This document shows, in pieces, positions 8,253 through 44,440 of a stretch of DNA of 45,625 bases; the first letter of the stretch is position 1; every line of letters starts with the position of its first letter. Source of the stretch: Clostridia bacterium (GTDB taxonomy: Bacteria; Bacillota; Clostridia; Oscillospirales; CAG-272). The translations under genes were made by a program, and so were the position numbers. A model generated the notes under the pieces. The model was not told where the DNA came from. It saw only the letters and a list, made by a program, of their open reading frames with translations, and searched no databases. The stretch is taken from positions 1 through 45,625 of the forward strand of contig JAFTNU010000025.1 of the NCBI GenBank assembly GCA_017451735.1, given 5' to 3'.

Positions 8253-10958
8253 TTACCCTTCCGGAGTTGTGGGCTCATCTGTCTCTGTTTCCTCTACGGT
8301 AGCCCACAGAGTAGGCGTACCGTCTGCATAGTGCCAGTATTTTTCGGGATTTTCAGTGGGCTCTGCGGCCGCATAATAATATTTTGCAACGCTTTCCAGC
8401 ACCCCTTTGGAATCGACCGTTTTCCATTCACTTTCCATGCCCTCGTAATATATGGTTTGCAATTTACTGCAATCCGCAAAGACTTTTTTACTAAGGGAGG
8501 TGACAAACAGCGGTATGGTTACCCATTCCAGATTGCTACAGCCCTCGAAGGCATCTGAACTGATATAGGTGAGCTTTGTACCCTCTCCGAAGTCCACACC
8601 TGTCAGGCTGACACAATTTTTAAAGGCTTCGCTCCCAACATTGACCAACTGATTATTGGGATAAAACTTCACCTCCGAAAGCTCTGCACAGTCCTCGAAA
8701 GCGGCAACACTGATGTTGGTAACCGTGTGAGGGATCGTTACAGAGGTCAAGGTGCGACAGTCATTAAACGCGTCAACGCCAATCACGGTTAAAGCGCTGT
8801 TTTCCGCAAACAGTACAGTAGCAAGCCTGCGGCAATTGGCGAAGGCGAAGGTTTTGATCTCGGTCACACTTGCGGGGATCTCAATGCCCGTCAGCAGGAT
8901 ACAAGACTGGAAGGCGTAATCTCCGATCATCGTCAGCTGTGAGCCTTCGGCAAAGGTCACAGTCGTCAGAGTGTTACAGCTGTAAAAAGCATAATCTCCG
9001 ATCTTTTTCACCGAGGCGGGGATGGTGACCGAGGTCAGATTATCTTCGTCTTTGAAGGCATTTTTTTTGATTTCCACCACAGGAATCCCGTTGATGCTCT
9101 CCGGAATGACGATATCCCCGTGGGGATTTTCGCATTTTTTGATCGTGGTTCCATCGTCGCGTTGCTTATAAGTAAAGCCATCACTTGTCCGGGTGGCAAT
9201 GGCGCTATCCGCAATGGCAGATGCAGCGATGCCGATACCGGCACAGAGTATACCTATCAGCACCACAAGCATAAACCGCCCGAAATGAAAGACTCTCTTC
9301 GTATGACCGTAGCTTGAGACACAAGTCGTTATGTATTTACCGATGGACTTGGAACAAAAGCCCGTGATTGCCACCGCCACCGCTCCTATCCCATACAACG
9401 GGAAACGCAACAGCGTGAAATTTTTGCTGACTGTATCGTTGGCGGTCGCAACGATATCCTGAATGCACATGATCAAAAGCCCGATGGCAATCAGAAGAAA
9501 TCCGATCATGATAAACAGATCCTCCCGTTTTTCCATGGCTTCCTTCTTCTTCTGTGCATCCTCTTGGCCATCATCACCCGTTTTTTTCCGTTTCTTCTTG
9601 GAATGCTCACGGCACTCCTTTATCAGCTGATCGGCGTCCTTGTATCCGGAGATGCTTTTAAACAAGCCTGCGGCGGTTTTATAATCCCCGTCGCTTTGCG
9701 CTTCGCAGGCCTTTACATAGATCTCCTCCTTCCGCTTGTTCTCCTTGCGGGTGCGGATATCCTGCAAATAGCCGCGCATTTCGGCCTTCAGGGTATCGTC
9801 GCCGTAGCGCATAATCTGGGTATAGTTGTGGTTCTGGTCAAAGGGATTGCATTCGGAAAGCCCGCTCACATCGGTCACTCGCAGCTCTGTCATCAGCCTG
9901 CCCAGATACCCGCGGGCATTGGAGGGCGCACGGTTGATCACCTGATCAAACATCTCCCCCGCGCTGTCAAAATCACCTTGCTCCAGATAAGCAAAGCCGC
10001 TTTTCAGCAACGGAGCGATCTCGGTACGAACCGTCATGGGCTCACTTGCGGCGGGCGAAGCAGTAGCGGGAGCACCCACGATCTTTTTGATGCCGTGAAC
10101 CAGATCGGCCATAAATCCAAGGCGGGACATATCCAAAGCCTGCAAATGAGAAAACTCCTCGGGCAGATCGTACGGATTCATATCCCGATAGGCCGGGATC
10201 AGATGCTTACGGGCACCGTTACGGATCAGCGTCAGATAGCGGCTCCATTCGTTCTTCACCCAAACGGCGTTGAAGTATTCGGGCTTGGTGCCCAGCACCA
10301 CCATGACCTTGGAGCTGTTTAACGCCGCATAGATGTAGGGCTCATAGGCCACACCGGGCTTATCCTCCAGGGTGATACGGGAGAAAAAGACCTTGAAGCC
10401 CTCCCGCTCCAGCTCATGATACAGATCGGTGGCCAGGGCGCTGTCCTGCGTACGCCGCCCGGAGGCATCGGATTCCTTGTAGCAAATAAAAATATCAAAG
10501 GGATCCTCGCTCTGTGCAATGGAGAGATAGCCGCGTTGGATCTCGTTGATCGCATTCGCTTCCTGCTCATAGAGCTTGTGTTGTTCCCCATCGGCGTATT
10601 TCAGTGCCGATTTATAATCCTCATCTGCAAAAACGGCGGTTCGCTGCATTCGGTTGACGGTGGGCAGATGCCGCTTGGTGGCGGGATCCTCTACATACTC
10701 GATCCCATAGCGACAAAGCACCAAGGACCAATAGGCCTCGGCATCGGTGGCATCCTCCCGCAGGATCCGCTCATAGGCCTCCATCGCCTTGTCGAAATCG
10801 CTGTTACGACGGTAATGATTGGCACGGTTATAAAGATTGACTCGGACATCACTTGCCTTTTTGGGCAAGGTCTGCTCGTATCCGCAGTAGATGCATTTGG
10901 CTACAGACCTTCCGTTTGCCTCCAATGCGGCACCGCAGTTTTTACACTCAAAAATCAT
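8253..10958 (-). CDS. Zinc ribbon-TPR-TIR-3TM-LRR receptor-like protein (paralog 1)
   Basis: A 901-residue multidomain protein. Residues 5-25 form a zinc ribbon (CKNCG and CIYCG). About 40-145 is helical and TPR-like (DFDKAMEAYERIL). About 150-292 is a TIR domain, with DPFDIFICYKESD as box 1, YEPYIYAAL holding Glu206 at the catalytic position of NAD-cleaving TIRs, and WVKNEW after it. A second TPR-like region follows (315-345, 410-445), then a basic stretch and three membrane helices (about 481-502, 514-535, 561-586). The C-terminus is a BspA-type LRR domain (about 605-840). Basic residues before the first helix and an odd helix number predict TIR inside and LRR outside. The ATG at 10958 has AGAGG upstream; a TTG at 10973 is an alternative. 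It lies 39 bp after pncB with no promoter between. Function unproven. Confidence 0.85.
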   Translation of the reverse strand: MIFECKNCGAALEANGRSVAKCIYCGYEQTLPKKASDVRVNLYNRANHYRRNSDFDKAMEAYERILREDATDAEAYWSLVLCRYGIEYVEDPATKRHLPTVNRMQRTAVFADEDYKSALKYADGEQHKLYEQEANAINEIQRGYLSIAQSEDPFDIFICYKESDASGRRTQDSALATDLYHELEREGFKVFFSRITLEDKPGVAYEPYIYAALNSSKVMVVLGTKPEYFNAVWVKNEWSRYLTLIRNGARKHLIPAYRDMNPYDLPEEFSHLQALDMSRLGFMADLVHGIKKIVGAPATASPAASEPMTVRTEIAPLLKSGFAYLEQGDFDSAGEMFDQVINRAPSNARGYLGRLMTELRVTDVSGLSECNPFDQNHNYTQIMRYGDDTLKAEMRGYLQDIRTRKENKRKEEIYVKACEAQSDGDYKTAAGLFKSISGYKDADQLIKECREHSKKKRKKTGDDGQEDAQKKKEAMEKREDLFIMIGFLLIAIGLLIMCIQDIVATANDTVSKNFTLLRFPLYGIGAVAVAITGFCSKSIGKYITTCVSSYGHTKRVFHFGRFMLVVLIGILCAGIGIAASAIADSAIATRTSDGFTYKQRDDGTTIKKCENPHGDIVIPESINGIPVVEIKKNAFKDEDNLTSVTIPASVKKIGDYAFYSCNTLTTVTFAEGSQLTMIGDYAFQSCILLTGIEIPASVTEIKTFAFANCRRLATVLFAENSALTVIGVDAFNDCRTLTSVTIPHTVTNISVAAFEDCAELSEVKFYPNNQLVNVGSEAFKNCVSLTGVDFGEGTKLTYISSDAFEGCSNLEWVTIPLFVTSLSKKVFADCSKLQTIYYEGMESEWKTVDSKGVLESVAKYYYAAAEPTENPEKYWHYADGTPTLWATVEETETDEPTTPEG
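8440..9125 (-). repeat. LRR_5 (BspA-type) repeat coding region of paralog 1
   Basis: About ten units of roughly 23 codons with the pattern ...LTSVTIPxSVxxIGxxAFxxC..., typical of Treponema-type LRRs (PF13306). These are protein repeats, not DNA elements. The array is the shortest of the three paralogs. Confidence 0.85.
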
Positions 10959-10997
10959 ATTTTCGCCTCTCAAAGGATGTTAAATGACCTTGCACTA

Positions 10998-12449
10998 TTA
11001 TTTGTGTCTTTGCTTTTTGATCATGCCGAATTTGAGATCCCAGAGCTTTTGAGAAAGATCCACATAGTAGTTATGGGGATTATCAAAGCGCTTGACCTCA
11101 TCCCACATGCTTTCAAGGGATGCTTTGCAATGGGTACGAATCTGCTCGATGGTGGGCAGCTCATAGATCTGGTTGCCATCCTTGAAGATAGGCACCAGCA
11201 ATTCCACTGCCTTGAAATTCTCCAGGGTTTTGGTCTTCCAGGTGTTTTCGGGATCAAAGATCTCCAGGGGCTTGGTATCATCCACCGTCTCGTCATGGAC
11301 ACAAAGCAGGTCGGCCTCGGCCTTGCCGGTATCCCGACCGATCAGGCGATACACCTTTTTAAAGTGGGGGGTGGTGATCTTGCCCACATTCTCGCTCAGC
11401 TTGATCTTGGGAGTGATATTTCCCTCCTCATCTTCTACGGCGCAAAGCTTGTAAACGCCGCCGAACACAGGGGCGCTCTTGGCGGTGATCAGACGCTCAC
11501 CAACGCCGAAAGCATCGACCTTGGCATCCTGTTGAATGAGTCCGCGGATGATGTATTCGTCCAGAGAATTGGAGGCGACGATCTTGCATTCCGGGAAGCC
11601 GGCTTCGTCCAGCATTTTGCGGATCTTGCCCGAAAGATACGCAATATCACCCGAATCAAGGCGCACGGCACACTTTCTGATCCCCTTGGGTACCAACACC
11701 TCTCTGAATGCGCGAATGGCATTGGGGACGCCCGATTCCAGTACGTTGTAGGTATCCACCAGCAAGGTCACATCGTTGGGATAGATCTCGCAATAAGCCT
11801 TGAAGGCCTCGTATTCGCTATCGAACATCTGCACCCAGGAGTGTGCCATGGTACCGGTTGCGGGCACGCCGAAGGCGGCGTCTGCGATGGCACAGGCAGT
11901 ACCCGAAACGCCGCCGATATAAGCGGCACGGGCACCGAGAATGGCGGCATCCGCCCCTTGTGCGCGGCGGGAACCGAACTCACTGATGGCACGTCCCTTT
12001 GCGGCACGGGTGATACGCGCCGCCTTGGTGGCGATCAGGGATTGGTGATTGAGCATCATCAAAAGATAGGTTTCGATGAACTGAGCCTCAATGGTAGGAG
12101 CTCGAACCGTCATCAGGGGCTCGCCCGGAAACACCACGGTCCCCTCCGGAACCGCCCAGATGTCACCGGTAAAATGGAAGCCCCGCAGATACTCCAGGAA
12201 ATCCTCTTGAAAACAGCCCCGACGGCGCAGATAGTCGATATCATCCTTGTCAAAATGCAGATCATTCACATATTCAATGATCTGCTCCAGGCCTGCGGCA
12301 ATGGCATAGCCGCCATCATCGGGATTCTTGCGGTAGAAAACATCAAAATAAGCGATCTTTTCCTTCATTCCCTTGCGGAAATATCCGTTACCCATGGTCA
12401 ATTCGTAATAATCGACCAGCATCGTCAGATTGCGTGAAATGTCTTTCAT
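10998..12449 (-). CDS. pncB: Nicotinate phosphoribosyltransferase
   Basis: A 483-residue enzyme of the long Gram-positive type. It joins nicotinate to PRPP, with ATP hydrolysis, to make nicotinate mononucleotide, the committed step of the Preiss-Handler NAD salvage route in the cytoplasm. Landmarks are LTMLVDYYELTMGNGYF near the start, EFGSRRAQG around residue 157, GTMAHSWVQMF with the phosphorylated His203, and LVDTYNVLESG. The ATG at 12449 follows AAGGAAAATACT. It lies 16 bp after the DUF5722-like gene and 39 bp before a TIR-LRR gene, so the three are probably one transcript. Linkage to a TIR protein is notable because TIR enzymes consume NAD. Identification is firm. Confidence 0.95.
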   Translation of the reverse strand: MKDISRNLTMLVDYYELTMGNGYFRKGMKEKIAYFDVFYRKNPDDGGYAIAAGLEQIIEYVNDLHFDKDDIDYLRRRGCFQEDFLEYLRGFHFTGDIWAVPEGTVVFPGEPLMTVRAPTIEAQFIETYLLMMLNHQSLIATKAARITRAAKGRAISEFGSRRAQGADAAILGARAAYIGGVSGTACAIADAAFGVPATGTMAHSWVQMFDSEYEAFKAYCEIYPNDVTLLVDTYNVLESGVPNAIRAFREVLVPKGIRKCAVRLDSGDIAYLSGKIRKMLDEAGFPECKIVASNSLDEYIIRGLIQQDAKVDAFGVGERLITAKSAPVFGGVYKLCAVEDEEGNITPKIKLSENVGKITTPHFKKVYRLIGRDTGKAEADLLCVHDETVDDTKPLEIFDPENTWKTKTLENFKAVELLVPIFKDGNQIYELPTIEQIRTHCKASLESMWDEVKRFDNPHNYYVDLSQKLWDLKFGMIKKQRHK

Positions 12450-36947: not shown

Positions 36948-36972
36948 ACCTCTCTTTTGCTTATTCTTATAT

Positions 36973-37001
36973 ATTGTACTCTATTTTTCGGTATTTGTAA
37001 A
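36973..37001 (-). promoter_or_regulatory. Sigma-A promoter of the pyrH-to-birA operon
   Basis: On the minus strand TTTACA, 17 bases and TACAAT, about 26 bases upstream of the pyrH start codon. The -35 and spacer lie in the repeat also found upstream of the SGNH gene. Confidence 0.8.
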
Positions 37002-37009
37002 GAGCAAAC
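36982..37009 (-). repeat. 28-base exact repeat, copy B (promoter of pyrH)
   Basis: Minus-strand sequence identical to 19338-19365 on the plus strand, ending three bases before the TACAAT -10 box in both copies. Confidence 0.9.
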
Positions 37010-37055
37010 GACGAAAAAGATGGCAAAACGGTTCAAATTTTTCAGAAATTTCAAA

Positions 37056-37091
37056 AACATCTCCGCAGAGCCTTGACTCTGCGGAGATGTT
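37056..37091 (-). terminator. Terminator of TIR-LRR paralog 2
   Basis: Minus-strand stem AACATCTCCGCAGA with its complement, an 8-base loop, followed by TTTTGAAATTT. It insulates pyrH from the TIR gene. Its outer stem resembles that of the paralog 3 terminator. Confidence 0.88.
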
Positions 37092-37097
37092 GGCATT

Positions 37098-39884
37098 TTA
37101 ATTGCGTTTCCAGTAATAATCGTCATACGTATCAAACAGAAGCACGGCATCACTCCCCGTACCGCTCAGGGACACCGATTCACCATCCACGGCAGAAGCC
37201 GATTGCGTACGCATCCAGCCCTGGGTGTTGGCAAAGATCACACTCATTTTGCTGCATCCTCTGAAAGCACATTGACCGATGCTTGTCACAGAGGCAGGAA
37301 TTTCTGCCTCAAGCAAATTTTGGCAGTCGGCAAAAGCATAATCCCCGATGCCGATGCATTGAGCAGTTCCCTGGAATTGCAGCTTTGTAATCTTCACTTC
37401 CGAGCCGTAAAACAAATACGCAGGAATCCGGGTCACATTTTCACCGATATAAACCGTAACGCCATCTCCGTTGTAACCGGCATAACCGAAAATAGAGGAA
37501 TTAGCCGTTGCATTACTCATTTCCGTAGCATTAAAGTAAATTGCTGTCAGCCCCATGCACTGGCCAAATGCATCGGAGCCGATCCGTATGACGCCGGACG
37601 GGATCGTAACGCTGCTAAGACCGATACAATTGAAGAAAGCACCCTCGCCGATGTTCGTGATCTGTTCGTGTAGGGTCAGGCTTGTCAAGCCCTCGCAGCA
37701 ATCGAATGTATAAGCGCCGATCACCGTTACACCGGAGGGGATCACAATTGCTTCAAGCGCCGTGCAGGCCTGAAATGCACCGTCACCCAGATTGGTCAGC
37801 GAGGACGGAAGCGTTATGGCCGTCAGGTCATCACAATAAGAAAATGCGTAATTGCCGATGGTGGCGCATTGGCTATCGGCCGCAAAAGAAACGGTCACGA
37901 TCTTGGGGGCACTATCCGCAGATGAATAGGGTGAGAACAGATAATTGGGGATGCGGGTTACGTTGGCGCCGATATTGACCGTGATACCGATGCCGCTCTG
38001 CCCCGATTTTGAAAAAATATAATTGGATTCACGCAGATGATTGGCGGCAGCTGCATTGTAATGGATCTCGGTCAGGCCGGTGCAATCAGCGAAGGCACTC
38101 TCACCGATGGTGACTACGCCCTCACCTATCGTGACACTCTTCAGGGCCGCGCAACCGTAAAAGGTGGATTCATTGATGGTGGTCACACCTGCGGGGATCG
38201 TTACACTGCCGAGCTTTTCGCAAGCGTAAAAAGCACGGGAGCCAATGGAGGTCACGCTTGCGGGGATGAAAATAGTTTCCAGCTTTCCGCACTGTGAAAA
38301 GGCAGATGCACCGATGCTGATCAGATCAGACGGCAGGGTGACGGTCTTTAATGCAGTACATCCGGAAAAGACCGAATCGCCGATTTCCGTTACACCCGAG
38401 GGGATCGCAATGCTTGTCAAGGATGTGCAATCACCGAAGGCCTCGGTGCCGATGCTTGTCAAATTTTGGGGAAGCGTCACGGTGGTCAATTGGTTGCATC
38501 CGGAAAAAGCATACAGACCGATGGTCGTCACCGAGGATGGAATCGTCACACTTGTGATCCCCTTTTCACGACTAAAGGCATTGTCACCGATCTTCACAAC
38601 CGTTTTGCCTTCTATGGTATCGGGGATCACAACCGCCCCCGAGACATTATGGCAGGAATCGATAGAAACCCCTTCTCCCGATGCGGAGCAGGTGTATTCG
38701 GGTACCCCCGAAGATTGGTTGCCATCAGCCTCGGGTATGGGATTCTCCATCGCACCGCCGTCGTCCGCATAGATGCTCTTATCGGAATTTGTGCTGCCGC
38801 CGTTCAAAATACTGCCGCCGATCTTATCCACCAGCGAAGCGATGCCGATCACGGCAGCGATCACAACGACCGCTGCGGATATGGCCAGAATATGCCGCGG
38901 CTTCAGCTGCAGTCTGCGTTTTTTCTTTTTTTGTTTTCCGTCCGATTCCTCCTGAATGATCCTTTTGATCTCCTCGGACAGATCCATGGGATGGACGATA
39001 CGCTCCAGGGTGCGCTCCAGCTCGGCAATCAGATGGACATCGGCCGTCAGACCCTGATAGCCTGCCAGCTCCTCGGGGAGCATGCTCGGCTTGAACTCGT
39101 CGATAAAGATGGGAATGATGGTTTTATTGGTGGCGGAATTTTTGGTGAAGGCGTGAAAACGGCTCCATTCGTTCTTGACCCATTGAGACTCCAGATAGTC
39201 CCGCTTACTGCACAGAACCAGCATGACCTTTGCCGTGTACAGACCGTAGTAAATGTTGGGCTCATACTCGCGGACCACCACATCCTTCAGGGATTTTTCA
39301 CTGAAAAAGACGCGGTATCGACCGGCAAAATGGTTGTAGAGATCATAGGCCAGATCGTGATCCTTGGTCACTCCCCCGTCAAAAGCACTCTTCTTGAAGC
39401 AAATGAAAATATCGTAGGGGGCAGAGGTCTTTTCGATGGTATGATAGAGGCGCTTGGCCTGTATCAGCCGATCGCCCATATCGCGGAAGCGCGCCGCCTT
39501 TTCGGGGTCGTTTCGTTCGGCCAGACCAATGGCACTGATGTAGTAGGATGAGGTCTCGATATCCTCCTCTGCTACGGCATAAAAGGAAGGAAAGCGCTCC
39601 CCCTTCTCGTCGGTCTCGAACATCACGCGCTGTTGGCAAAGCAACAGATTCCAGTAAACATCCGCATGATCCCTGTCGGGATAGTCCTTGATGATATTCT
39701 GATATAGCCCCTCCGCCTCGCGGAAGCGGGTGCTCTCGCGGAAAACATTTGCCTGAGCAAAATCATGCTCCAGCTGTGGATCGCCCACTATGTGGACCGA
39801 CTTACAATATCGGCAGACCCGTTTTCCGCCCTCGCCGGGCAGGGGCGCTCCGCAAACCGGGCATACCACCGTTGTCAATTCCAT
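37098..39884 (-). CDS. Zinc ribbon-TPR-TIR-TM-LRR receptor-like protein (paralog 2)
   Basis: A 928-residue protein. Cys8, Cys11, Cys24 and Cys27 form a zinc ribbon. About 40-150 is a TPR-like helical segment. About 155-305 is a TIR domain: YDIFICFKKS as box 1, RVFFSEKSLKD, then EYEPNIYYGL with Glu208 at the NADase catalytic position, and SQWVKNEWSRF. A basic stretch (KKKKRR near 319-324) precedes a single membrane helix (about 331-352). A Ser/Gly/Asn-rich linker leads to about twenty BspA-type LRR units (about 400-890) and a short C-terminal cap containing TQGWMRTQ. Basic residues before the helix predict TIR in the cytosol and LRR outside. The ATG follows AAAAGGAGAATGT. It has its own consensus promoter and terminator. 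The first 310 residues are nearly the same as in paralog 3. Function unknown. Confidence 0.88.
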   Translation of the reverse strand: MELTTVVCPVCGAPLPGEGGKRVCRYCKSVHIVGDPQLEHDFAQANVFRESTRFREAEGLYQNIIKDYPDRDHADVYWNLLLCQQRVMFETDEKGERFPSFYAVAEEDIETSSYYISAIGLAERNDPEKAARFRDMGDRLIQAKRLYHTIEKTSAPYDIFICFKKSAFDGGVTKDHDLAYDLYNHFAGRYRVFFSEKSLKDVVVREYEPNIYYGLYTAKVMLVLCSKRDYLESQWVKNEWSRFHAFTKNSATNKTIIPIFIDEFKPSMLPEELAGYQGLTADVHLIAELERTLERIVHPMDLSEEIKRIIQEESDGKQKKKKRRLQLKPRHILAISAAVVVIAAVIGIASLVDKIGGSILNGGSTNSDKSIYADDGGAMENPIPEADGNQSSGVPEYTCSASGEGVSIDSCHNVSGAVVIPDTIEGKTVVKIGDNAFSREKGITSVTIPSSVTTIGLYAFSGCNQLTTVTLPQNLTSIGTEAFGDCTSLTSIAIPSGVTEIGDSVFSGCTALKTVTLPSDLISIGASAFSQCGKLETIFIPASVTSIGSRAFYACEKLGSVTIPAGVTTINESTFYGCAALKSVTIGEGVVTIGESAFADCTGLTEIHYNAAAANHLRESNYIFSKSGQSGIGITVNIGANVTRIPNYLFSPYSSADSAPKIVTVSFAADSQCATIGNYAFSYCDDLTAITLPSSLTNLGDGAFQACTALEAIVIPSGVTVIGAYTFDCCEGLTSLTLHEQITNIGEGAFFNCIGLSSVTIPSGVIRIGSDAFGQCMGLTAIYFNATEMSNATANSSIFGYAGYNGDGVTVYIGENVTRIPAYLFYGSEVKITKLQFQGTAQCIGIGDYAFADCQNLLEAEIPASVTSIGQCAFRGCSKMSVIFANTQGWMRTQSASAVDGESVSLSGTGSDAVLLFDTYDDYYWKRN
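37215..38690 (-). repeat. LRR_5 (BspA-type) repeat coding region of paralog 2
   Basis: About twenty 22-24-codon units (LTSxxIPxGVTxIGxxAFxxC) with two longer modules that end in IGANVTRIPNYLF or IGENVTRIPAYLF. These are coding repeats, not a DNA repeat element. Confidence 0.85.
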
Positions 39885-39932
39885 ACATTCTCCTTTTCGG
39901 CTGACACCGAGAATGAAATCATGATCTGTTTT

Positions 39933-39961
39933 ATTATAGCAAATTTGTTTTTCTTTGTCAA
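39933..39961 (-). promoter_or_regulatory. Perfect-consensus sigma-A promoter of TIR-LRR paralog 2
   Basis: Minus strand TTGACA, 17 bases and TATAAT, about 49 bases before the ATG. The leader shares GATTTCATTC and AGCCG-AAAGGAGA with the paralog 3 leader. Confidence 0.88.
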
Positions 39962-39977
39962 TATTTCATACAAAAGA

Positions 39978-40011
39978 ACATCTCCCAAGGGAAAGCTCTC
40001 TTGGGAGATGT
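39978..40011 (-). terminator. Terminator of TIR-LRR paralog 3
   Basis: Minus-strand stem ACATCTCCCAAG with its complement and a 10-base loop, followed by TTCTTTTG. It ends just upstream of the promoter of paralog 2. Confidence 0.87.
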
Positions 40012-40026
40012 CGAAAAAAGCTAAAA

Positions 40027-43000
40027 TCAGCTGCGTTCCCAATCGGATTCGGAATTCTTGAAGAGTTCTGCCGCTTTTTGGGAATTTTTCATGTCCGCAC
40101 TCGGTATAGCGGAGCTGGCAAAATCGTTGGTGGCGACCCATCCCTCGGTGCTCTCAAATTCCATCTCGGACAGCGCACTGCAAGCATAAAACGCACTGAT
40201 GCCGATATGCGTCACATTTTCGGGGATCTTGATGTTGACCAGATATTCGCAACCGAGGAATGCACCGTCGCCTATATCGGCGCACCGGCTATCGGCTTCG
40301 AATACCACGACCTTGATCTCAGACACATAATGGAACAGATAAGCAGGGATCCTGGTCACATTCGCCCCAAACGTCACCGTCACGCCGACCGTATCGGTTC
40401 CTACAGAAAAGGCGTTGTTCCAGGCTTGCAGATCGCTCATGGCCGTAGCGTTGAAGTTGAGCTGCGTCACACCCGTACAGACGCTGAAGGCCGAATTTCC
40501 AATCGTTGTTACGCCCTTCCCTATGGTGATGACCGTTAATCCGGTGCATCCGTAAAAGGCCTTGGTTCCGATTGTCGTCACAGCGTCGGGAATGACAATA
40601 TTCACCAAGCCCGTGCACCCGTAGAAGGCCTCGCTGCCGATGGTCTTGCATTGGCTTTGGCTTGCAAAGCTTACAGCCACCATATCGGTTACACCGCTGA
40701 ACAGGTAAGCGGGGATCTGCGTTACATTGGCGCCGATATTGAGCGTGATGGTATTGGACGTTGCCGTATTTCGTGTGAAAATATACAGCTGCTCACTCAA
40801 ATCGGGCATGGCGGTGGCGTTAAAGTGGATCTCGGTCAGCCCGGTGCAGTCATAGAAGGCCTGTGTTCCGATGCTTACCACGCCCTTACCGATGGTAACG
40901 CTCTGCATGGATGCACAACCCGAAAAGGCGTATGCGCCGATGGTCGTCACACTATCGGGAATCGTCACGCCGGTCAGTGAGGAGTAGGAAAATGCACCTG
41001 CGCCGATGGATGCGACCCTTGACGGAATGACAAAGGACTGCAAGCTCGTACACGATTGGAAGGCTCTTTCCCCGATCTGTGTAACCGTTTCGGGAAGCGT
41101 GATAGCGGAAAGAGCGGTGCAACGACCGAACGCATAGGCTCCGATGCTTACGCAGACACTTCCCTGCTCGAATACAACGGTCCCAATGTTGTAATTTTCG
41201 TAGAACAAATAAGCGGGAATCTTGGTGACGTTGGCACCGATATTGAGCGTGATCGGATTTTGCGTATCGGTGGAGCCGAGCCGGAACGGCTGCTCTCCGG
41301 ATAGCAGATCATCCAGTGCGGTAGCATAGAAATTGATCTCGGTCAAGCCCGCACAATCAGCAAACGCACGGGAACCGATGCTTGTAACCGTTGCGGGGAT
41401 GGTTACACTCGAAAGCGCGGCGCTCGCATAGAAGGCATAGGCACCGATGCAGGTGCATTTGCTCCCCTGTGCAAAAGCAACGGATGTGATCTTGGGTGCG
41501 TCGTCATAAAGGCCGGGATAGAACAGATATGCAGGAATCTGTGTGACATTGGCACCGATCTTTACCGTAATACCGCTTGACAGGCTACCGGCTTTGCCGA
41601 ATACAGGAGTACCCGAGGTCAGGTGCAGCATTGCCGTAGCGTTGAAATTGATCTCGATCAATCCCGTACAGCCTAAAAATGCATTTTCACCTATCTGCGT
41701 GACCAATTCGGGAATGGTGATGCTTGCCAGGCGCGCACAGCCGTTGAAGGCAGAAGCACCGATCGTGGTCACCGAATCGGGGAGCGTAATTGAGGCCAGC
41801 TGTGTGCATCCGTTGAAGGCCAAATCTCCGATGCCTGTACAATGGCTTCCCTGCTCAAACGTGACCGACGTCAGATAAGAAGCATTGTAGAAAAGGTATG
41901 ACGGAATCACGGTTACGTTGGCACCGATGCATACGGTGATGCCCGTTACGTCCCGACCTGCATCATGAAAGAAATTGCCTCTTAAATCACTCATCGCCGT
42001 CGCATTGAAATTGATTTGCGTCAGCCCGACACAGCTATGAAAGGCATTCTCACCGAGGCTTCTGACGCTCCGACCGATCGTTACGCTTGCCAGATTGGAG
42101 CAGCCGGAAAAGGCCTGACTGCCAATATCGGTTACACCATCACCGATCGTGACCTCCGTCAGCCCCACACAACCGCGAAACGCCTGCTCACCGATGCTCA
42201 CGACACTTGCGGGAATCGTCATATTTGCCAGATTGGTGCAATTGTAAAATGCGGAATCGCCGATGCTCTCGCAAACGCTGTCCTGAGCAAAGACCACCGA
42301 AACAATATTGGAAACACCGACAAAGAGATTAGCGGGAATCACGGTCACGTTGGCACCGATATAAACGGTGATCCCTTCGCCACCCTTCCCTGCCTCATCA
42401 AAGGTCCGATGATAGCCACTCATTGCTTCCAATGCCGTGGCATTGTAGTTGATCTCTGTCAGCGCCTTACAACCACTGAATGCACCGTAACCGATGCTTA
42501 CCACATTTGCAGGGATCGTGATGCTTGTAAGCCCCGTACACCCCGAAAAAGCGGCCTCGCCGATGCTTGTAACGCCTGCAGGGATGGTGACACTTGTCAA
42601 TCCCGTGCAATTGGCAAACATATTGGAGGCAATGCTTGTTACCCCTTCCGGGATGGTGATGCTTTTGAGCGCCGCGCATCGAGAAAAGGCGGAGTCCCCA
42701 ATGGTCGTAACGCTTGCGGGAATCGTCACGGTGGTAAGCTTGACGCATCCCTCAAAGGCATTCTGACCAATATTTGTGGCACCGTTGCTGATCGTCACGC
42801 CGGTCAATTTTTTACAATTCGAAAACACGCCCGTGCCCATATTGACAACAGAGGACGGAATCGTTACATTTATCAAATTTTCACAAGCTTCAAAAGCATT
42901 CCGACCGATATCGGTCACTCCCTCGGGGATCACGATGCCGGAAAGCGAGCTGCAACGGGCAAAGGCCGAATCACCGATCACAGTCACCGTAGACGGGATG

Positions 43001-44289
43001 GTAATGCTTGTCAATTCACTCCCACAACCGGAAAATGCATCATTTCCGATTGCCACCACCGGCAATCCGTCAATCGTTTCGGGAATGGTGGCCGTTTGGC
43101 CGTCGAGATTCCACCGATCCAGGCGAACACCGTTCCCGAAGGCCGAATATTCATAAGGCGCCGTTTCTTCAGGCACATCTCCCGGAGGTGTCACAGGATC
43201 GGTTACGGTGGAATCTTCCTCGTTTTTGCCGATATTGTAAACAATCAGGGAAACGGCAACAGCCATACCGATCACAACAGCAGCGATGATGGGGATCAGC
43301 AAGCGTTTTTTCCCGGATTTGCTCTGCCCTTTTTGCGCATCGGCTCCCTTTTCTTCCCGAACCAGCCGTTTGATCTCTTGGTACAGGTCCACCGGATGCA
43401 GCACAGGCTCCAGCATTTTTTCCAATTGAGCGATCAAATGCACATCGGCAGGCAATCCGTGGCAGTCTGCCAATGCTTGCGGGAGCATGCCGGGCGTAAA
43501 ATCGTCAATAAAGATCGGAATGACCGTTTTCCCTGCAGCGCTGTTTTGAGAAAAAGCGCAGAAACGGCTCCATTCATTCTTGACCCATTGGGATTCCAGA
43601 TATTCCTTTCTGCTGCATAGCAAAAACATGATCTTGGCTGTGTACAAGCCGTAGTAAATATTCGGCTCATACTCACGAACCGCCACATCTTTGAGAGACT
43701 TTTCACTGAAAAACACCCGATATTTACTGGCAAAATGGTTGTAGAGATCGAATGCCAGACCGTGATCCTTGGTCACACCGCCATCGGCGGCAGTCTTTTT
43801 GAAGCAGATGAAAATATCATATGGCTTGGATGTTTCCTCGATGGTACGGTACATCCGTTTCGCGCGTACCATCCGCTCACCCATATCGCGGAACCGTGCC
43901 GCCTTTTCGGGGTCGGAGCGTTCTGCCAGAGTGATGGCACTGATGTAATGGGGAGAGGTCTCGATATCCTCCGGTGCAATAGAATAAAATGAAGGAAAGC
44001 GCTCCCCCTTCTCGTCGGTCTCGAACATCACCCGCTGCTGGCAAAGCAACAGATTCCAATACACATCGGCGTGATCGGTATTCGGATAGGCTTTGATGAT
44101 ATTCTGATACAGCCCCTCCGCTTCACGGAAGCGGGCGCTCTCGCGAAACACATTTGCCTTGGCAAAATCGCGCTCTGCGCGGGGATCGTTCACCACATGC
44201 GCGGTTTTACAATAAGGGCACACCACTCTGCCACCATCACCGGACATTAATGCCCCGCAAACCGGGCATACCACGGTTGTCAGCTCCAT
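40027..44289 (-). CDS. Zinc ribbon-TPR-TIR-TM-LRR receptor-like protein (paralog 3, long ectodomain)
   Basis: A 1420-residue protein with the same order as paralog 2: zinc ribbon Cys8/11/24/27, TPR-like helices about 40-150, TIR about 155-305 (YDIFICFKKT, RVFFSEKSLKD, EYEPNIYYGL with Glu208, SQWVKNEWSRF). A basic stretch then precedes one membrane helix about 329-352. An acidic and Pro-rich linker leads into about 1000 residues of BspA-type LRR (about 400-1385), ending in a cap with TEGWVATN. Six longer modules ending in motifs like IGANVTQIPAYLF recur about every 150 residues. The N-terminal 310 residues match paralog 2 at most positions, while the ectodomain is far longer. The ATG follows AAAGGAGAGAGC. 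Own perfect-consensus promoter and terminator. Predicted topology is TIR inside, LRR outside. Ligand and output unknown. Confidence 0.88.
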   Translation of the reverse strand: MELTTVVCPVCGALMSGDGGRVVCPYCKTAHVVNDPRAERDFAKANVFRESARFREAEGLYQNIIKAYPNTDHADVYWNLLLCQQRVMFETDEKGERFPSFYSIAPEDIETSPHYISAITLAERSDPEKAARFRDMGERMVRAKRMYRTIEETSKPYDIFICFKKTAADGGVTKDHGLAFDLYNHFASKYRVFFSEKSLKDVAVREYEPNIYYGLYTAKIMFLLCSRKEYLESQWVKNEWSRFCAFSQNSAAGKTVIPIFIDDFTPGMLPQALADCHGLPADVHLIAQLEKMLEPVLHPVDLYQEIKRLVREEKGADAQKGQSKSGKKRLLIPIIAAVVIGMAVAVSLIVYNIGKNEEDSTVTDPVTPPGDVPEETAPYEYSAFGNGVRLDRWNLDGQTATIPETIDGLPVVAIGNDAFSGCGSELTSITIPSTVTVIGDSAFARCSSLSGIVIPEGVTDIGRNAFEACENLINVTIPSSVVNMGTGVFSNCKKLTGVTISNGATNIGQNAFEGCVKLTTVTIPASVTTIGDSAFSRCAALKSITIPEGVTSIASNMFANCTGLTSVTIPAGVTSIGEAAFSGCTGLTSITIPANVVSIGYGAFSGCKALTEINYNATALEAMSGYHRTFDEAGKGGEGITVYIGANVTVIPANLFVGVSNIVSVVFAQDSVCESIGDSAFYNCTNLANMTIPASVVSIGEQAFRGCVGLTEVTIGDGVTDIGSQAFSGCSNLASVTIGRSVRSLGENAFHSCVGLTQINFNATAMSDLRGNFFHDAGRDVTGITVCIGANVTVIPSYLFYNASYLTSVTFEQGSHCTGIGDLAFNGCTQLASITLPDSVTTIGASAFNGCARLASITIPELVTQIGENAFLGCTGLIEINFNATAMLHLTSGTPVFGKAGSLSSGITVKIGANVTQIPAYLFYPGLYDDAPKITSVAFAQGSKCTCIGAYAFYASAALSSVTIPATVTSIGSRAFADCAGLTEINFYATALDDLLSGEQPFRLGSTDTQNPITLNIGANVTKIPAYLFYENYNIGTVVFEQGSVCVSIGAYAFGRCTALSAITLPETVTQIGERAFQSCTSLQSFVIPSRVASIGAGAFSYSSLTGVTIPDSVTTIGAYAFSGCASMQSVTIGKGVVSIGTQAFYDCTGLTEIHFNATAMPDLSEQLYIFTRNTATSNTITLNIGANVTQIPAYLFSGVTDMVAVSFASQSQCKTIGSEAFYGCTGLVNIVIPDAVTTIGTKAFYGCTGLTVITIGKGVTTIGNSAFSVCTGVTQLNFNATAMSDLQAWNNAFSVGTDTVGVTVTFGANVTRIPAYLFHYVSEIKVVVFEADSRCADIGDGAFLGCEYLVNIKIPENVTHIGISAFYACSALSEMEFESTEGWVATNDFASSAIPSADMKNSQKAAELFKNSESDWERS
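40135..43092 (-). repeat. LRR_5 (BspA-type) repeat coding region of paralog 3
   Basis: About forty LRR units in six higher-order blocks. Each block holds several 23-codon units plus one longer module with NATAM and IGANVTxIPAYLF motifs. Nucleotide similarity between units makes this stretch prone to recombination and to assembly collapse. Confidence 0.85.
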
Positions 44290-44336
44290 GCTCTCTCCTT
44301 TCCGGCTTTTGACCCGAATGAAATCGTATTTGTTTC

Positions 44337-44365
44337 ATTATATCAAAATCGTCCTTGATTGTCAA
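44337..44365 (-). promoter_or_regulatory. Perfect-consensus sigma-A promoter of TIR-LRR paralog 3
   Basis: Minus strand TTGACA, 17 bases and TATAAT, with TGA before the -10 (extended element), about 48 bases upstream of the ATG. It has the same spacing as the paralog 2 promoter. Confidence 0.9.
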
Positions 44366-44382
44366 TCATGCAAGGCAATAAC

Positions 44383-44429
44383 AATCAACAAAAAACGCAA
44401 CGTCCGAGACGTTGCGTTTTTTGTTGATT
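44383..44429 (-). terminator. Terminator of the rpsB-tsf operon
   Basis: A 22-bp perfect stem around a 3-base loop, beginning AATCAACAAAAAACGCAACG. It lies 11 bases after the tsf stop. The T-tract is inside the stem. It separates tsf from the TIR genes. Confidence 0.92.
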
Positions 44430-44440
44430 AACAGAAGGAA

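Follow-up and report, generated by a model that had tools for sequence, protein, structure and literature searches.

Tandem TIR-transmembrane-LRR proteins with a predicted reversed Toll-like receptor layout in a Clostridia genome

The gene pair and its chromosomal site

The window, a stretch of 45,625 nucleotides, belongs to a draft genome of 2.37 Mb that is 90.7% complete. The two genes that the initial annotation recorded at 37098-44289 are present there as open reading frames on the minus strand, P1 (37098-39884, 928 aa) and P2 (40027-44289, 1420 aa), with a spacing of 142 bp by their ORF coordinates. ORF analysis, Pfam and paralogue alignment identify P1 as a zinc ribbon-TPR-like-TIR-transmembrane (TM)-LRR protein and P2 as a protein of the same layout with a longer LRR tail. 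A third paralogue, P3 (8253-10973, minus strand, 906 aa), carries a TIR domain followed by hydrophobic segments and then LRRs, as judged by ORF, Pfam and hydropathy. Upstream of it, at 24 bp, lies a nicotinate phosphoribosyltransferase gene (10998-12449). A link to NAD salvage was considered and rejected, since just two cases occur among all loci examined, this one and one at ~3.4 kb from a TIR gene in genome G037. No RNA families were found within the window.

P1 and P2 are each preceded by a perfect promoter-like site (TTGACA-17-TATAAT, 12/12 in the motif scan). The P1 site (39933-39961, minus strand) has a TG before the -10 box and lies 48 bp before the ATG; the P2 site (44337-44365, minus strand) lies 47 bp before its ATG. 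P1, P2 and the paralogues L011 and L012 all have a perfect site whose second box is preceded by TG, at a distance of 47-58 bp from the start codon, and L010 has a perfect site at 130 bp. The upstream scan found no perfect site for P3, L009 or L013. Promoter-like sites are not enriched overall (nine found vs 8.0 expected), and the perfect ones alone stand out: seven occur in nine stretches of the window genome (~160 kb), five of which precede paralogue genes. A terminator-like hairpin of 20 pairs (44384-44427, minus strand; hairpin scan) separates tsf from P2.

The pair is flanked by tsf and pyrH, both named from reading of their sequences. A search of 21 genomes of the genus gave 20 pyrH loci, in which tsf lies within 250 bp in eight, the gap measures 0.9-1.4 kb in five, the window accounts for one, and no tsf was found within a flank of up to 1.5 kb in six. 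An LRR protein occupies this spot in G002 and G017, and the one in G002 is a lipoprotein. Since both the gap and its contents differ among the loci of the genus, P1-P2 is most simply read as an insertion at a variable spot.

Domain architecture and the TIR module

The proposed order of zinc ribbon, TPR-like helices, TIR domain, one membrane helix and BspA-type LRRs is well supported by the sequences of both P1 and P2. The zinc ribbon (C8-C27 in each; 39804-39863 in P1 and 44209-44268 in P2, minus strand, the latter by paralogue alignment) falls below the Pfam cut-off in both proteins. Its four cysteines (C8, C11, C24 and C27) are nevertheless invariant in all eight paralogues of the window genome, and the RNA polymerase subunit P zinc ribbon is hit by the profile at E 0.0064. 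The TPR-like part stands less evenly. The P1 region (residues 36-153; 39426-39779, minus strand) contains modelled helices at 36-84 and 113-153, and TPR_1 is clear in P3 (E 3.4e-8), but Pfam gives a sub-threshold TPR in P1 and lists none in P2.

The LRRs are unambiguous. LRR_5 (PF13306, cut-off 27.7 bits) scores 350.6 bits in P1 (E 3.5e-106) and 756.2 bits in P2 (E 1.1e-231), far above the cut-off and as annotated. By Pfam and composition the repeats span residues 431-898 of P1 (37191-38594, minus strand), where they are predicted to lie outside, and residues 413-1395 of P2 (40105-43053, minus strand). Pfam scans of P1-P3 revealed no NTPase switch domain. Homologues sharing the domain order exist, for example one in G019, of the same genus, with LRRs behind its TIR domain and helix, and the C-termini vary across the family.

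The TIR fold is likewise upheld. The domain occupies residues ~156-286 of both proteins (39027-39419 in P1, by Pfam, model and profile; 43432-43824 in P2, by Pfam and paralogue alignment; both minus strand). TIR_2 (PF13676, curated cut-off 28 bits) scores 40.6 bits in P1 (E 4.3e-10), 32.8 in P2 (E 1.1e-7) and 52.6 in P3. An AlphaFold2 model of P1 residues 1-315 has a mean pLDDT of 86.6 and a pTM of 0.74, and a sequence profile compared with solved structures matches a plant TIR (3jrn, E 8.8e-5) and the TLR15/TLR2 TIR (7ylf, E 1.2e-4).

P1 carries a catalytic-type glutamate, Glu239, at a WVxNE position that we take to be that of the catalytic residue in NAD-cleaving TIR enzymes. It is present in 8/8 paralogues and faces a glutamate in both 3jrn and 7ylf in the profile alignment. 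Among stretches found by profile, the column holds a glutamate in 35 of 36, or in 27 of 28, three of them from the window genome, once eight refetched genes are removed; 80 named loci and 141 ORFs were picked by a motif around Glu239 and are unusable for this count. The TLR15/TLR2 TIR also has a glutamate there, and we know of no NADase activity for animal Toll-like receptor TIRs, so the residue alone is no proof of an enzyme. On the favoured reading, the module probably cleaves NAD+.

Membrane helix and predicted topology

P1 has a membrane helix at residues 332-352 (38829-38891, minus strand; hydropathy 2.73) with a strongly basic N-terminal side, counting nine K/R in the 15 residues before it and one after. 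The P2 helix (residues 330-351; 43237-43302, minus strand; hydropathy 2.82) is preceded by KSGKKR. A second, weaker hydrophobic call in P2 at residue 650 (1.93) lies inside the LRRs, and for that reason we read it as spurious. The basic-flanked single helix of the initial annotation is thus retained for both proteins, and neither has a hydrophobic N-terminus.

The charge pattern recurs among relatives. A set of 126 non-redundant relatives, which includes the window genome's own members, contains 55 with a single hydrophobic segment after the TIR domain, 19-25 residues long; P2 falls outside this subset on account of its second weak call. K/R residues are in excess before the helix in 53 of the 55 (332 vs 116 residues), or in 44 of 46 without nine members whose tails of six residues or fewer make the bias trivial.

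LRR composition follows helix status as well. The LRRs of TM-bearing members have a median charged fraction of 13.4% (n=16, including three truncated at contig or locus ends) vs 19.4% in TM-less members (n=6; p=0.003), with overlapping LRR envelopes in which some residues are counted twice. The fraction is 11.4% in P1, 10.4% in P2 and 18.5% in P3. Ser/Thr content runs in the same direction without separating TM-bearing from TM-less members (p=0.07). Among TIR-less LRR proteins with a lipobox, the charged fraction is 11.1% in L149, 14.8% in L177 and 9.4% in L181; L177 and L181 are LRR lipoproteins of the window genome, while L149, like L141, comes from the tsf-pyrH spot of relatives. Further values are 13.8% for L141 (start outside the sequence), 10.4% for L178 (no signal recognised), 16.2% and 22.9% for L176 and L179 (starts outside the sequence), and 23.7% over 97 residues for the zinc-ribbon protein L180. 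L182, a window-genome protein with a signal-like N-terminus, goes against the trend at 25.8% over 62 residues.

These sequence features support a topology in which the amino end of P1 and P2 is inside and the LRRs are outside, because the charge distribution follows the positive-inside pattern, the N-termini are not hydrophobic, and the LRR composition resembles that of exported LRR lipoproteins, unlike that of TM-less relatives. The suggested prediction of an N-in helix therefore comes out in favour of that orientation. The side on which the P3 LRRs lie is less sure, as P3 shows a pair of clear hydrophobic segments, with a third visible by eye.

Paralogues, distribution and exchangeable C-termini

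The window genome encodes eight paralogues, one of them (L013) truncated by its contig end, together with a ninth that is split into two fragments at contig ends. L012 joins the same module to LRRs without a membrane helix, whereas L010 lacks LRRs and ends in a repeat and a glycine-rich tail. Matches occur in 16 of 59 relatives (own genome counted; three of the 16 have weak and short ones only), in 7 of 21 genomes of the genus (one only a fragment) and in 19 of 293 members of the class (own genome counted). A scan of public named genomes yielded at least 570 encoding stretches among 588 found. The 80 named loci discussed below are the best 80 for the query out of at least 570, found through the motif around Glu239, and a further set of 141 ORFs was picked by a motif like it. 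These best 80 come mostly from Clostridia-type MAGs of animal guts, and a few among those listed are labelled Victivallales, Chloroflexi or planctomycete. Arrays of three to five such genes with differing tails are found at L055, L060, L061, L083 and L084.

Sequence comparison depicts the family as a constant zinc ribbon-TPR-TIR module joined to exchangeable C-termini, with one, several or no membrane helices. After 20 of the 126 relatives were left out as incomplete, 106 full-length members remained, of which 37 or 40, depending on the hydropathy threshold, have no helix; LRR-bearing ones are among them. Pfam (E 0.001) was run on the C-termini of 104 of the 106, two being left out for size, and recognised DUF6273 in 27, TPR_2 in 23, LRR_5 in 19, Flg_new and RCC1 in three each, FGE-sulfatase and SH3_3 in two each, and ankyrin in one. 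In phage proteins, DUF6273 domains are reported to have a fold similar to that of C-type lectins and to be hypermutation targets (PMC10743442). The G019 relative L170 (2561 aa) carries InlB-type Flg_new repeats and LRRs behind its TIR domain and helix. The LRR ectodomain layout thus holds for P1 and P2 and has to be widened for the family, in which LRRs are one of several C-termini, many members lack a helix and many relatives sit in an SPFH/four-helix operon.

Over the TIR module, P1 shares 77% identity with P2 and 80% with L011; the LRRs of these three proteins reach 34-42% in their best alignments. A tree built on the constant module requires no fewer than 26 switches of C-terminal class, vs a mean of 40.7 (range 34-46) over 200 label shuffles, so C-termini appear to be exchanged often but not at random. 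This was a quick tree in which some branches are long (L010, L013), built from 124 of the 126 relatives (two dropped for short modules), 104 of them with crude class labels. Two routes to diversity were considered and rejected. For a diversity-generating retroelement, no template or variable repeats were found in 124 sequences (the window and loci, with named-locus flanks of up to 7 kb). For a recent expansion of LRR repeats, no tandem array was found, the sole long direct repeat being a 300-base match between the two TIR parts.

Genomic neighbourhood

Of the 80 named loci (the best 80 of at least 570), 48 have an SPFH (Band_7_1) gene at most 6 kb away in the same orientation, and none has one on the opposite strand. 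A four-helix membrane protein of ~230 aa is nearby in 44 of these 80, and both partners are present in 41. The counts come from a six-frame scan with two search models built from the same loci and are therefore descriptive. Four SPFH proteins scanned match PF13421 (E 3e-19 to 3e-40), and two four-helix proteins scanned have no Pfam match. PF13421 matches of any kind occur in 43 of 59 relatives, mostly one or two per genome. In G019, TIR-LRR genes lie within SPFH-four-helix operons (L130, L170). In G005, G012, G014 and G030, which gave no module match, the neighbours of the SPFH-four-helix pair include proteins with a DUF5050 domain or a zinc ribbon (the latter in some cases below cut-off) that do not match TIR. 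The window genome encodes only one lower-scoring PF13421 protein, of the common type, plus another with a weaker match, and its paralogues have neither an SPFH nor a four-helix partner within the flanks examined.

Some traits resemble those of defence genes. The patchy distribution, AbiH/SIR2-like neighbours and one operon near integrase- and recombinase-like genes (L170, by reading) suggest such a role. An AbiH/SIR2-like gene adjoins the TIR gene in six loci (L060, L096, L119, L122, L131 and L173); of three scanned, one is above the Pfam cut-off and two are below. SIR2_2 has no match in the window genome, and no ThsA-type effector gene occurs among the neighbours scanned or read. With the P3 module as the only query, no relative was found in phage or plasmid records. 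One viral contig carries a relative, and this is less carriage than expected for a mobile defence gene. Among PADLOC-DB models, no system fits P1 or P2: P1 matches only PD-T4-6 (E 0.011), outside the TIR domain, and P2 matches none. P3 matches PDC-S66 (2.1e-4) and ThsB (6e-4), and one SPFH and one four-helix protein scanned have no match there.

Proposed function and alternative readings

We tentatively favour, at a little short of even chances, a surface-sensing receptor whose clustering activates an NAD-cleaving TIR domain, most likely for defence. P1 and P2 would be single-pass membrane receptors with the amino end inside, and the LRR tail outside the cell membrane would bind a ligand, at a guess a phage part, a toxin or contact structure of a competitor, or a host or diet polymer. 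Binding would cluster the chains, the cytosolic TIR domains would assemble, and the assembled domains would cleave NAD+, leading to a growth stop or an ADP-ribose signal. With a consensus promoter-like site in front of each gene, the receptors might stand ready in advance. The sequence basis for this reading comprises the domain order, the TIR fold (model and profile), the conserved glutamate, the N-in charge, the export-type LRRs, the promoter-like sites and the shuffling of C-termini; the ligand, the clustering, NAD+ cleavage and the defence role are what we infer from it. The conserved TIR module, the divergent LRRs and the many changes of C-terminal class suggest receptor-like evolution.

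More broadly, gut Clostridia and some other bacteria might carry a large family of transmembrane pattern-recognition receptors diversified in the germline, in which a constant cytosolic TIR is combined with exchangeable ectodomains (LRR, C-type-lectin-like, InlB-type, TPR), often together with an SPFH-four-helix platform. Such receptors would sense phages or rivals before entry and answer with NAD-based arrest. This extension is possible but rather doubtful.

BspA-type LRRs are typical of surface adhesins, and P1 and P2 could be environment receptors whose LRRs bind host mucus, diet fibre or other bacteria, with the TIR domain as a scaffold or signal for attachment instead of defence. Models of the LRR adhesin HupY/LrrG and of Gli349 match the LRRs, far below their cut-offs, and the genome, which also encodes LRR lipoproteins, is that of MAG RGIG4228 ('Clostridia bacterium') from roe deer colon or very near it (a 5017-base contig of that MAG is 100% identical over its whole length to part of another contig of the window genome). 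We hold this reading to be unlikely, given the catalytic-type glutamate kept in nearly all profile-found stretches and the C-type-lectin-like, RCC1 and ankyrin modules and TM-less forms, which are untypical of adhesins. SPFH-type neighbours would also fit membrane-stress surveillance like that of B. subtilis YdjGHI-PspA, in which the SPFH and membrane proteins would gather at the stressed membrane, the TIR domain would be the output, and the outside domain would only anchor the protein or report on the envelope. The paralogues of the window genome lack both partners within their flanks, and a general stress sensor would not need ectodomains of such diverse recognition folds. We accordingly give this account a low probability too, although the same-strand placement of SPFH genes and the frequency of the four-helix protein in the best 80 of at least 570 loci, by models built from these loci, speak for it, as do the SPFH-four-helix pairs whose zinc-ribbon or DUF5050 neighbours show no TIR match and the reported need for YdjI, with YdjG/H, to bring PspA to the membrane (PMC8581546).

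The outside placement of the LRRs could itself be questioned. L012 has the module and LRRs without a helix, so an LRR can work inside, and in P1 and P2 the hydrophobic segment might be only a tether with the LRR tail inside, as in TM-less members. P1 and P2 group with the TM-less LRR members L012, L045 and L046 (6-row set, support 76), and more than a third of full-length members have no helix. Against this stand the charge bias in 53 of 55 single-helix members, their segment lengths of 19-25 residues, an LRR composition like that of exported LRRs, and the InlB-type ectodomain behind the helix in L170 and, by reading, in the paralogue L010. We regard an inside tail as very improbable.

Comparison with known systems

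Toll-like receptors have LRRs outside, one membrane helix and a TIR domain inside, in the chain order LRR-TM-TIR. P1 and P2 resemble them in the single helix, in the predicted placement of LRRs outside and TIR inside, and in a TIR domain that matches the TLR15/TLR2 TIR by profile, but differ in the order TIR-TM-LRR, in the BspA-type LRR_5 repeats, and in the zinc ribbon and TPR-like part. Nothing indicates that the chain as a whole shares ancestry with Toll-like receptors, and 'reversed' refers to layout only. Plant TIR-NLR and bacterial TIR-STAND proteins likewise unite a TIR domain and a repeat-type sensor in one chain; P1-P3 differ in having no NTPase switch domain in Pfam scans and in that the sensor follows a membrane helix. 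The TIR_2-type domain and catalytic-type glutamate are shared with bacterial TIR immune proteins such as Thoeris ThsB/ThcB, and P3 weakly matches the ThcB4 and ThsB models. The match to ThcB4 reaches only 33.7 against 220 bits, and the membrane receptor layout and the absence of a ThsA-type neighbour set the present proteins apart. BspA-like LRR surface proteins of the genome and genus (L149, L177, L181) have the same repeat class and a similar LRR composition, but they are lipoproteins without a TIR domain.

In the B. subtilis PspA-YdjGHI system, an SPFH (band 7) protein accompanies membrane proteins, among them a zinc-ribbon one; no TIR term occurs in the available text on it, and the ESCRT-III homologue PspA serves as partner there (PMC9239133, PMC8581546). 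Within the available text of two further papers, SPFH appears only in a reference (PMC7159879) or is absent (PMC8195603). In the open-access literature searched, no TIR-TM-LRR receptor or SPFH-TIR operon is described, in agreement with the earlier statement that no bacterial system of this topology has been characterised; most subscription papers and bioRxiv lie outside that scope, so the arrangement may be known elsewhere.

To our knowledge, the known bacterial TIR immune proteins sense from inside the cell. If the proposed reading is true, this widespread family, with diverse recognition domains outside and TIR inside, would be what Toll-like receptors are in animals, built in the opposite chain order, making both the surface detection of phages or competitors by ligand-specific receptors and the role of a bacterial SPFH platform in TIR signalling open to experiment.

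Among the best 80 of at least 570 relatives, taken as named-genome loci (L044-L123), genes encoding zinc ribbon-TPR-TIR proteins recurrently share an operon with genes for an SPFH (Band_7_1) protein and an unnamed four-helix membrane protein (e.g., L053, L064, L110). Two loci of G019, a genome from the same genus as the window genome, have the same operon layout (L130, L170). In other genomes, the SPFH-four-helix pair accompanies zinc-ribbon or DUF5050 proteins without TIR; large TIR-less proteins are encoded near the pair at L163 7994-11191, L161 8067-11984, and L159 2-3325, and two of these three carry DUF5050. The operon of SPFH and four-helix genes is a candidate uncharacterised system. 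The sole relative on a viral contig is L138 (IMGVR_UViG_3300031555_010668), a putative viral sequence whose gene row reads SPFH, four-helix protein, TIR, and a DUF6273-like stretch.

The interval between tsf and pyrH varies in content across the genus: it may contain TIR-LRR genes, LRR proteins, or other lipoprotein-like ORFs, or be empty (window 36948-44440; L139-L158).

An AbiH/SIR2_2-like gene adjoins a TIR gene in six loci from different genomes (L060, L096, L119, L122, L131, L173). A protein of ~230-270 aa does so in four (L080, L109, L112, L114), and the one scanned (L112) had no Pfam match. A nicotinate phosphoribosyltransferase gene lies 24 bp before P3, the third TIR paralogue in the window (window 8253-12449), and in a second family is at most ~3.4 kb from TIR genes (L133 1534-8829), giving two cases in all.

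DUF6273 is matched in 27 of 104 C-termini of TIR proteins (e.g., L054, L097, L101, L173), some of which lack a membrane helix. PMC10743442 likens the DUF6273 domains found in phage proteins to the C-type lectin fold; the DUF6273-bearing proteins may join TIR to lectin-like sensors.
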